Source: Curtobacterium sp. MCPF17_052 (GTDB lineage: Bacteria > Actinomycetota > Actinomycetes > Actinomycetales > Microbacteriaceae). From it: a stretch of 64,000 nt of DNA. The stretch's first letter is position 1, and each line of letters starts with the position of its first letter. The notes under the pieces are model-generated. The model had not been told where the DNA came from, ran no database searches, and worked only from the letters and a program-made list of their open reading frames with translations. The DNA lies in assembly GCF_003234085.1 (NCBI RefSeq), contig NZ_QKSD01000010.1, forward strand, positions 138,821-202,820. Direction: 5' to 3'. The translations under genes were made by a program, and so were the position numbers. This document shows, piece after piece, positions 15,039 through 64,000 of this stretch.

Positions 15039-15286
15039 CAGGACGCCGGCGTCCGCACGTGACGCCGCCGAGTGCCCGAGACGCCGCCGACTTCGGCGGC
15101 GTCTCGCGCGCCCAGCGCCGTCCCGGGAGCCCGGCGGCGTCTCGCACCTCCGGCGGCGTCTCGCACCTCCGGCGGCGTCCCGCCAGCCCGGCGCCGTCTC
15201 GCACCTCCGGCGGCGTCCCGAGAGCCCGGCGCCGTCTCGCACCTCCGGCGGCGTCTCGCCAGCCCGGCGGCGTCTCGCACCGCGAG
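15039..15286. repeat. Array C1: head-to-head 19-bp-period repeats with GGCGTCTCG core
   Basis: Ten forward units of exactly 19 bp start at 15097 (core CGGCGTCTCG or a one-base variant plus nine variable bases, mostly CACCTCCGG or CCAGCCCGG). Three reverse units (core CGAGACGCCG and variants) lie on the same period at 15039, 15058 and 15077. The two sets face each other across a 10-bp centre, 15087-15096, forming a 30-bp palindrome. The array sits in the fumC/phoH convergent gap and does not code. Confidence 0.9.
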
Positions 15287-15289
15287 GGA

Positions 15290-15325
15290 CGGGAGGCGCG
15301 GTGCGGGCCCGCACCGCGCCTCCCG
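15290..15325. repeat. GGGAGGC hairpin (family A), perfect 36-bp palindrome
   Basis: CGGGAGGCGCGGTGCGGG is followed directly by its reverse complement. It begins three bases after array C1. Family A hairpins recur in many gaps of this window and are probably transcription terminators. Confidence 0.85.
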
Positions 15326-15370
15326 CCCGTCCTTGCTGGCGTCCACTGCGCCGCGGCTCGAGGCGGCTGC

Positions 15371-15430
15371 GCACAACGGAAACCGCTCCGAACCACGGCA
15401 TCCCGTGGTTCGGAGCGGTTTCCGTTGTGC
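15371..15430. repeat. 60-bp palindromic element B2 between convergent genes
   Basis: Perfect 28-base arms (starting GCACAACGGAAACCGCTCCG) enclose a CATC loop. Length, ends and inner CCACGG stem match B1 at 4709-4768, while several arm bases differ in both arms at once so pairing is kept. Confidence 0.88.
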
Positions 15431-16959: not shown

Positions 16960-17156
16960 GACCACTCCATCCCCGGGCCGCGCTCGGCCCGGTCATGTCC
17001 TTCGACGCGGCCACTGGAGCGGTCCCGGAGCACCGACCGTGGCCGCTCCGACCGGGCGCGTTGCCCGATGTCGCCAAGCTACGACGCGCGGTGCGACGGC
17101 ACCAGCGACACGCCTGGTCCTGCGGTTACGGTCGTGTGTCGTCCGGCTGAACGTCC

Positions 17157-17484
17157 GGGAGGCGCGGTGCGGCCCCGCCACGCGCCTCCCGCCCGTCCCG
17201 CCACGCCCAGCACCCCGCGCCGAGCGGTCACAGGACGTCGCTCCAGCCACCCCAGAGCGACACGACGTGACCGCTCGGCGGAGTGCCGACGGCGAGTCAC
17301 GACCGCTCGGCGGACGCAGACGGGAGGCGCGGTGCGGCCCCGCCACGCGCCTCCCCGCCCGTCCCGCCACGCCCCGCACCCCGCGCCGAGCGGTCACAGG
17401 ACGTCGCTCCCACCGCTCCAGAGCGACACGACGTGACCGCTCGGCGGAGTGCAAACGGGGAGTCACGACCGCTCGGCGCCGCAC
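17157..17484. repeat. Tandem repeat E: two copies of a ~164-bp unit
   Basis: The stretch 17157-17320 is repeated almost exactly at 17321-17484. Each unit begins with a family A hairpin (GGGAGGCGCGGTGCGG..., 17158 and 17322) and then an imperfect palindrome with 12-base ends CCGAGCGGTCAC / GTGACCGCTCGG (17220-17278 in copy 1). It occupies most of the 559-bp gap upstream of phoH and downstream of the aminotransferase. I see no gene in the gap. Confidence 0.88.
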
Positions 17485-20380: not shown

Positions 20381-20406
20381 CCCGGCCGTCAGGGGCCCCG
20401 TCTGCG

Positions 20407-20454
20407 CCAGACGCCGCCGTCCGAGCCAGACACCGCCGTCCGTGCAAGACCTCG
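20407..20454. repeat. Degenerate 19-bp-period array (family C-like)
   Basis: CCAGACGCCG at 20407, CCAGACACCG at 20426 and CAAGACCTCG at 20445 lie exactly 19 bp apart and resemble the reverse core CGAGACGCCG of arrays C1-C3. No clear forward half follows, so this may be a decayed copy. Confidence 0.55.
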
Positions 20455-20500
20455 CCGGCTGCGGCGGCGCACACGAGGGGGTCTCCCGCAGACGGCGGGG

Positions 20501-20570
20501 CGCGACCCACGGACGGACGGGAGGCTCCCCACCAGCCGGTGGGGAGCCTCCCGTCCGTCAGTGGGTCGCG
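20501..20570. repeat. 70-bp hairpin (family A) between convergent genes
   Basis: Long arms beginning CGCGACCCAC and containing GGACGGACGGGAGGCTCCCC fold on their complement ending GTGGGTCGCG, with one extra base in the right arm. It abuts the stop codon of the minus-strand gene at 20571 and is a likely bidirectional terminator. Confidence 0.8.
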
Positions 20571-30355: not shown

Positions 30356-30394
30356 CGGGCCCGGCGACGGTTGCCGTTGCGGCCGGTCACCTCG

Positions 30395-30443
30395 CCTGTC
30401 TGTCTGCCTGCCTGTCTGTCCGTCTGCCTGTCTGTCTGTCTGC
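30395..30443. repeat. Tetranucleotide (CTGT/CTGC) microsatellite
   Basis: About twelve consecutive four-base units, mostly CTGT with CTGC and CCGT variants, 39 bases after the Ig-like gene stop. Such simple repeats are rare in high-GC genomes. It is intergenic and directly touches a family A hairpin. Confidence 0.9.
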
Positions 30444-30482
30444 CGGGAGGCTCCGCAAGAGCCCGCCACGGGCCTCCCGTCC
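30444..30482. repeat. GGGAGGC hairpin (family A)
   Basis: GGGAGGCTC ... GGGCCTCCCG arms with an imperfect stem, between the convergent Ig-like and thrE genes. Confidence 0.6.
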
Positions 30483-30509
30483 GCCGTCGGCGGTGTCCCG
30501 GGACCGCGC

Positions 30510-34923: not shown

Positions 34924-35067
34924 CGAGACGCCGGGGCGGCCGCGAGACGCCGCGGAGTCCGCGAGACGCCGCCGGGATTCGCGGCGTCTCGAGCAGACGA
35001 TGGCGTCTCGAGCAGACGGGGGCGTCTCGAGCAGACGGGGGCGTCTCGGGCAGACGGGGGCGTCTCG
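34924..35067. repeat. Array C2: head-to-head 19-bp-period repeats
   Basis: Three reverse cores CGAGACGCCG at 34924, 34943 and 34962, then a 10-bp centre (34972-34981), then five forward cores GGCGTCTCG with start positions 34982, 35001, 35020, 35039 and 35058. All steps are exactly 19 bp. The nine-base spacers on the forward side are nearly all AGCAGACGG, unlike those of C1 or C3. The gap 34759-35161 holds no gene. Confidence 0.9.
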
Positions 35068-58492: not shown

Positions 58493-58656
58493 CGGGAGGC
58501 GCGGGTCCCCGCCGACGGGTCCGTCGCGCCGGCGAGACGCCCCCGTCTCCCTTCGGCGCCGCAGGAGTCGCGAGACGCCGTCGACCTCGGCGGCGTCTCG
58601 GGGGTTCGCCGGCGTCTCGGGGGTTCGGCGGCGCTCGGGGGTTCGGCGGCGTTCCG
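58492..58656. repeat. Array C3: head-to-head 19-bp-period repeats, with a half family A site
   Basis: Reverse cores CGAGACGCCC at 58533, a degenerate one at 58552 and CGAGACGCCG at 58571, a 10-bp centre 58581-58590, then forward cores at 58591, 58610, 58629 (one base deleted) and 58647. Spacers are GGGGTTCG-like, distinct from C1 and C2. A GACGGGAGGCGCGGG half-site of family A starts the gap at 58493. It lies between the convergent molybdopterin and PrmC-like genes. Confidence 0.85.
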
Positions 58657-58684
58657 GCAGGCGGCGACGTTCGGACCGCAGTCG

Positions 58685-63423: not shown

Positions 63424-63570
63424 GGGTTCCTCCTCGTGGGTCGTCCGGGCGGACGCTACGCGCGGGGGTCCCCGCGGCCACGGAGGGCGGAGCGGCATGC
63501 GGACAGGCGGGCGGGCACGCTGGCCGGGCGGGCGCAGGGCGTCGACGCGCGCGGGCGCAGGGCGTCGAGA

Positions 63571-64000
63571 GGTCACGATGCGTCGCTCTGGGGGCCCGCG
63601 CGAGACGGATTGCGACACCTCGGCGGAACTGAGCGGGGTGTCGCGCGACCGCGGCAGCCCGCGGACGGGAGGCGCGCTCCGCGTCCGGCACCGCGCCTCC
63701 CGTCCGCCGCCCGCCGGCCACCGCGACACCCCCGCTGCCCGACGCCGAGAGGCCGCAATGCGTCGCTCTGAGCGCCCGAGAGAGACGGATCGCGACACCT
63801 CGGCGGAACCGAGCGGGGTGTCGCGCGACCGCGGCAGCCCGCGGACGGGAGGCACGCCCCGCGTCCGGCACCGCGCCTCCCGCCGCCGGCCGCCGGCCAC
63901 CGCGACACCCCCGCTGCCCGACGCCGAGAGGCCGCAATGCGTCGCTCTGGGCGCCCGAGAGAGACGGATCGCGACACCTCGGCGGAACCGAGCGGGGTGT
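63571..64000. repeat. Tandem repeat D: ~180-bp unit, at least 2.4 copies, running off the window
   Basis: Units begin near 63571, 63751 and 63930 (steps 180 and 179). Each holds a GCGACACC...GGGGTGTCGC hairpin (63612 on in copy 1) and a family A hairpin with GCGGACGGGAGGC arms (63661-63708 in copy 1, 63840-63886 in copy 2). The 577 bases from 63424 carry no gene that I can see. A 17-base direct repeat, GCGGGCGCAGGGCGTCG, lies just before copy 1. Confidence 0.88.

Follow-up and report, generated by a model that had tools for sequence, protein, structure and literature searches.

Mirror-symmetric, helically phased core arrays at gene ends of Curtobacterium: a candidate docking platform for a DNA-binding protein

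Three gaps between genes in the 64,000-nt stretch of Curtobacterium DNA analysed here (the window) carry a 9-bp core, GGCGTCTCG, which recurs head to head with its reverse form, CGAGACGCC, at a step of 19 bp, and the question raised is what these arrays are and what keeps them in place. The three arrays (C1, C2 and C3) are real: the places and the 19-bp register put forward in a sequence-only reading of the window were confirmed, with 3+10 units in C1 and 3+5 in C2, as was the 30-bp palindrome, CGAGACGCC-N12-GGCGTCTCG, formed by the innermost core pair of each array. The features are as follows.

15039..15277, no strand assigned: C1, three reverse and ten forward cores at a 19-bp step, PSSM score 92; convergent gap between a fumarase gene and a PhoH-type gene (neighbours assigned by Pfam).
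15077..15106, no strand assigned: central 30-bp palindrome of C1.
15283..15330, no strand assigned: terminator-like GGGAGGC...GCCTCCC hairpin beside C1, outside the element.
20398..20500, no strand assigned: decayed fourth copy, in the convergent gap 20381-20570.
34924..35067, no strand assigned: C2, three reverse and five forward cores, all eight exact, PSSM score 97; co-directional gap downstream of enolase.
34962..34991, no strand assigned: central 30-bp palindrome of C2.
58533..58657, no strand assigned: C3, in a convergent gap, PSSM score 71.
58571..58600, no strand assigned: central 30-bp palindrome of C3.

The ten forward cores of C1 (five exact, four with one mismatch and one with two) hold an exact 19-bp register. 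In C3, for which two to three reverse and four forward units had been claimed, three reverse units are present, the outer (58533) and inner (58571) being exact and the middle one (58552) degenerate with four of nine bases off, and on the forward side only two exact cores precede a 1-base deletion that ends the register. Homogenisation of the spacers within each locus holds for the forward side of C2 and for C3 but not for C1, where the spacers alternate and the best-scoring tandem period is consequently 38 bp; the tandem amplification proposed for these loci is supported. The decayed copy, which the sequence-only reading did not contain, has a left half-arm scoring 26 at 20405 and a 19-bp tandem at 20398-20450; its whole-element score is only -31. 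Other repeats were observed in the window: a near-perfect 26-bp inverted repeat at 15372-15429, adjoining C1, with similar long hairpins in the same gap of genomes G020 and G007; long tandem repeats of approximately 166 and 180 bp, 94% alike and containing GGGAGGC-type sequence, at 17156-17478 and 63566-64000; and a short CTGT-rich tandem repeat at 30394-30444, in the convergent gap 30356-30509.

Two outcomes had been named as counting against a true periodicity, random spacing outside the window and similar arrays in shuffled sequence, and neither was found. In the genome to which the window belongs (G000, 3.54 Mb, 76.6% complete), inverted core pairs separated by 2-32 bp are found at 30 places, or 20 distinct palindromes by manual grouping, and every gap is 12 or 31 bp (12+19), compared to none with a reversed-pattern control; direct core pairs with gaps of 1-31 lie on the 19- or 38-bp phase at 53 of 59 places (control, 1). 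The PSSM, derived from 50 elements in other Curtobacterium genomes, gave a best score of -35 over five shuffled windows, and a core-free geometry test that recovers the window arrays found none in three shuffles. Taken singly, the core shows no enrichment in the window, where 90 matches with at most one mismatch compare with 108 expected, indicating that the arrangement is unusual and not the word, and a DNA uptake sequence was rejected on the same count. A CRISPR array, already discounted in the sequence-only reading, was also rejected: CRISPR repeats are about 21-48 bp long with unique spacers of similar length, which a 9-bp core and 10-bp, partly homogenised spacers do not fit.

All three arrays are copies of an element that is dispersed through genomes of the genus Curtobacterium. 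In its commonest form, which was not part of the sequence-only reading, this element is a mirror-symmetric 106-bp unit containing eight copies of GGCGTCTCG in the order < > < < and, past the centre, > > < >, with a 19-bp direct step, the 30-bp central palindrome and its cores on a 19/21-bp spacing. Units 2 and 3 of each arm flank an inverted core, and the outer pair abuts as CGAGACGCC followed directly by GGCGTCTCG; read outwards, the arm consensus of 50 elements is tnCGGCGGCGTCTCGnnnnnnnnGcGGCGTCtCgcgnagACGnCGGCGTCTCG. An alignment, with flanks, of 112 non-redundant palindromes from a total of 124 shows conservation falling off 53 bp from the centre, that of the central cores being there by construction since the palindromes were picked by exact central cores. 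Three phased units is the commonest number per arm (66 of 126 left arms and 55 of 126 right arms) and 385 of 429 unit-to-unit steps are 19. This fixed spacing supports the earlier suggestion of a protein that would contact the core at set intervals, the protein itself being putative. C1, C2 and C3 are variants of the 106-bp unit, with an inner inverted core that is weak or absent and with extra direct units on the right in C1 and C2, and the longer arrays of the window are local extensions of it. An expanding element, the other suggestion, does not serve as the main story, given that the commonest form is bounded at three phased cores per arm, that sites are common to several species and that whole sets are lost. 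Two loci have a tandem unit of 17 or 21 bp in place of 19 (L039, 1579-1670; L044, 1579-1630), so the step can slip within single loci, and at four others (L136, L103, L165 and L177) three or four whole elements share a gap, approximately 126-194 bp apart.

Microbacteriaceae proved to be the right field in which to search. Of the 66 genus genomes, 43 contain the exact N12 palindrome, with between 1 and 30 occurrences each, some of these not being elements by score (L063, L064 and L065), and outside the genus in one of 388 family genomes (398 searched, ten of them in the genus). A species genome collection gave at least 111 stretches; among the matches listed 100 are Curtobacterium and 11 are otherwise named; of these 11, L138 (Microbacteriaceae bacterium PS02333) scores 54 and is a true element, and the other ten score below 0. 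A sequence-only search model matches 61 of the 66 genus genomes at E<=0.01. Its hit counts, which cover both strands and 58 scored candidates per genome and are not copy numbers, are nearly bimodal: 28 genomes have at most 10, one has 14 and 37 have at least 20. Assembly does not explain this, as six low and 14 high genomes consist of at most two contigs. On a fumarase-plus-enolase tree, in which several forks are open, the state changes at least 14 times if high is taken as at least 14 hits, a threshold by which G047 is scored high. The genome announcement of MR_MD2014, in its available text, gives one definite and 13 'potential' CRISPRs (PMC4698388), and some of these may be arrays of this element, given that the presumed counterpart of this strain, G052, has 71 model hits.

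Elements are found predominantly at gene ends. The 94 element-bearing gaps of named loci comprise 62 convergent, 30 co-directional and two divergent gaps, with one further palindrome in a predicted gene, compared to 66, 253 and 124 respectively for element-free gaps of at least 20 bp in the same loci (Fisher p 1.5e-22 and 8e-10), genes having been called with an in-house codon-usage script of which some calls may be wrong. The element is thus extragenic, dispersed and mostly after genes, as is typical of REP/BIME sequences. Comparison of the two elements in divergent gaps (L113 and L156) indicated no common feature, and no origin-terminus bias was seen in G001 or G017, with 14 exact-palindrome sites each. 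Given this position, it is possible that the element is simply the intrinsic terminator hairpin of the gap. This was rejected: of 60 convergent gaps that carry an element, 38 also have a separate hairpin elsewhere in the gap (stem of ten pairs or more), as do 31 of 51 convergent gaps that carry none, and the median gap length minus the element (141.5 bp) is similar to that of element-free convergent gaps (152 bp), so that the element is an addition to the normal terminator and not a replacement for it. A GGACGGGAGGC...GCCTCCCGTCC hairpin family adjoins elements at 15283-15330 and 20516-20560 of the window and at many other loci; it has many matches in all eight genomes searched, low-copy genomes included, and is probably an ordinary terminator of the genus. 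In the gap 3' of enolase in many species, again including low-copy genomes, the ordinary terminator stem is often CGAGACGCC...GGCGTCTCG, and it is possible that this stem was the seed from which the core arose.

Element positions are often common to several species. The three window sites are occupied in G020 and G007 (one G007 copy scoring only 25) and all three are empty in G051, where GGGAGGC-type hairpin sequence is retained without the element, pairs among G000, G020, G007 and G051 being 89-91% identical. The fumarase gap is occupied in five of 65 genomes, some fumarase gaps being cut by contig ends, and the enolase gap in 12 of 65; both are occupied in G065, of a neighbouring clade, which favours loss in G051. 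G001 and G047 are 95-96% identical at most sites compared, and from nine chosen G001 sites six could be aligned to G047, all six being empty there; three of the six are occupied in the outgroups G005 or G046, so that G047 lost those three. One G002 site is occupied in G002, G046, G005, G008 and G011 and empty in G003, G006 and G012, terminator sequence being kept at the empty counterpart in G003 and G006 and not in G012. For one G048 site, scores from four of eight genomes show the element in G048 and G043 and an empty site in G050 and G066. The most parsimonious account of these sites requires the element to have been lost at least four times. Some empty sites retain one or two outer cores, and one G047 site an abutting core pair. 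A core-free geometry scan found no core switching in 65 kb of G051 or 220 kb of G047, and among the called genes of the syntenic 64 kb none is present in G000, G020 and G007 and absent from G051.

At even confidence, we propose that the element is a multi-site docking platform for a putative sequence-specific DNA-binding protein, bridging the mirror arms and acting at gene ends. A multimeric protein would read the cores as repeated half-sites at 19-bp steps and would bridge the two arms across the 30-bp central palindrome, forming a nucleoprotein knot. Lying after genes, mostly convergent ones, such a platform may act on colliding transcription, positive supercoils or domain borders rather than on promoters. 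The presence of the protein would maintain the element set; were it lost, the palindromes would become useless or unstable and be deleted, sometimes between outer cores. Anatomy and distribution are what suggest each of these three parts: binding by a protein, the loss of sets through loss of that protein, and a role at gene ends. A gained palindrome-cutting nuclease could instead stand behind the loss of sets, the same pattern of loss being expected from it. An autoregulated operator was sought and rejected: in 1.43 Mb of stretches, partly redundant, an 18-bp palindrome with up to one mismatch occurs eight times away from elements, seven of them in coding sequence, leaving one operator-like single site outside genes.

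Comparison of cores and spacers bears on the docking platform. Outer cores are 0.689 alike within a genome and 0.634 between genomes, a difference of about 8 permutation sd, and spacers plus centre 0.527 and 0.510, about 3 permutation sd; this sharing of a within-genome consensus by the cores, and hardly by the spacers, resembles the pattern seen in binding sites. A conserved core, free spacers and a fixed geometry are therefore all found, as in a protein-binding array, with weak constraint in situ. Orthologous elements with flanks at least 90% identical are 0.851 alike (n=22), and those with flanks below 90% are 0.667 alike (n=29) compared to 0.656 for random pairs, the site still being occupied. 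Core and spacer retention was compared in 20 close ortholog pairs (of 22) and 10 distant ones (of 29); in the close pairs outer cores (0.85) are little better kept than spacers (0.81, p=0.18), a result that speaks against the docking reading and indicates that constraint on a single core is weak or acts on the whole set.

A non-autonomous mobile element of MITE- or REP-like type, driven by an unrecognised transposase whose loss led to deletion of the copies, is unlikely. It would account for dispersed, bounded copies in patchy number, for the greater likeness of elements within one genome than between genomes, and for a gene-end position such as that described for REPs in the available text of PMC3733652. 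Nevertheless, the Y1 (RAYT) transposase, PF01797, is absent from all 66 genus genomes, the control finding it in 5 of 14, and a RAYT partner was rejected on this basis. Among 81 full elements there is no target-site duplication, the identity of edge k-mers being near the shuffled level, and a MITE was rejected on this ground; some transposases leave no such duplication. Of six isolated half-arms within the loci extracted, none was seen as a pair around a gene. The best same-genome pair at different sites is only 84% alike, spacers are hardly shared, and sites are common to several species, all of which count against such an element. The 30 largest neighbour clusters hold no mobility gene and represent neighbour pairs of the same gaps, with no recurrent neighbour gene.

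It is improbable that the element acts as a structural hairpin, in RNA or single-stranded DNA, serving as a bidirectional terminator or as a stabiliser of mRNA 3' ends. The predicted fold is strong (z -4.2), as it is for any palindrome, and the mostly convergent, gene-end position would suit such a role. However, convergent gaps have the separate hairpin equally often whether or not they carry the element, a terminator is still present at some empty sites, no covariation is seen in the central and outer hairpins, whose pairing is reached in 318 of 500 shuffles, and most spacer positions in Curtobacterium pair no more than base make-up predicts. Arm-to-arm pairing is in slight excess (reached by 17 and 14 of 500 shuffles), which relatedness alone can produce and which leaves some room for a structural role against the docking reading.

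Further evidence comes from the wider family. The search model matches 26 of 199 family genomes, two of which (G000 and one other) belong to the genus; most of the 26 have between one and four hits, all weak, and G244, from genus g50, has 17. By eye, each arm in eight of nine G244 stretches has two units built on the core CGRAACACC or a near match to it; the 12-bp centre and the 19-bp step are those of Curtobacterium, and the spacers are largely complementary, at 25-31 of 34 mirror positions. At a threshold of 0.70, which is loose and has no shuffle baseline, the core-free test was passed by five of the eight G244 stretches, by one of two G188 stretches and by the G103 stretch, the cores in the G188 and G103 stretches being CAAGACGAC and CGACACGCC. 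A protein ruler would account for a similar geometry with a changing core, and a hairpin also agrees with the complementary G244 spacers.

Least probable is a functionless, neutral satellite, in which a chance palindrome such as a terminator stem was extended by 19-bp slippage: window arrays of up to ten units with homogenised spacers, weak in-situ constraint, decayed copies, the one or two outer cores left at some empty sites and the core inside terminator stems would all agree with it, but slippage is not expected to give a 3+3 form that is bounded, has its inner core inverted and recurs across species, nor a genome-specific shared core with nearly unshared spacers, nor a similar geometry with another core.

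Many dispersed bacterial palindromes have otherwise been explained as products of mobile elements. For the present element, the shared positions, the sharing of cores within genomes, the lack of a detected transposase and the near all-or-none loss point to a system of binding sites that can be switched off genome-wide. Pairs of the G001/G047 type, with many and few copies, are natural knock-outs: their gene content should name the partner, and their transcription or chromosome contacts would test what gene-end arrays do. Taken furthest, and with clear doubt, the docking platform may represent a new class of chromosomal architecture, in which a mirror-symmetric, helically phased docking array between convergent genes is purged as a set when a lineage-specific protein goes, and in which the core drifts across Microbacteriaceae genera while the 19/21-bp geometry stays fixed.

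Among the papers listed, a search of the literature found no published description of the element, the closest being REP/BIME and REPIN-RAYT systems. Iteron and centromere-like arrays of plasmids have short cores, a fixed step near two DNA turns and variable spacers, as the element has, and are single loci on replicons, whereas the element is mirror-symmetric and has many copies on the chromosome, at gene ends. MITEs, ERIC and Correia sequences are, like the element, bounded, about 100 bp long, mirror-symmetric and intergenic; the element differs in having neither target duplication nor near-identical copies and in occupying sites common across species. BIMEs are bound by gyrase. As described in the available text of PMC3733652, REP/BIME sequences, like the element, are palindromes with inverted partners, scattered outside genes and found after genes and between convergent ones; REPs are hairpins of 20-40 bp tagged at one end by GTAG or CGTC, and that text makes no mention of Actinobacteria or Curtobacterium. 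The element, by contrast, is 106 bp long with eight phased cores, has an actinobacterial host and is without evident selection for pairing, and unlike the unpaired tag of a REP, CGTC here lies inside the core and is paired with its mirror copy in the palindrome. With REPIN-RAYT systems it shares symmetric inverted repeats, dozens of copies and persistence within genomes. E. coli genomes without a RAYT gene keep many REPINs, with at least 69 per E. coli genome (PMC8049555, available text); in Curtobacterium, where none of the 66 genomes has a RAYT, the set is nearly gone in low-copy species.
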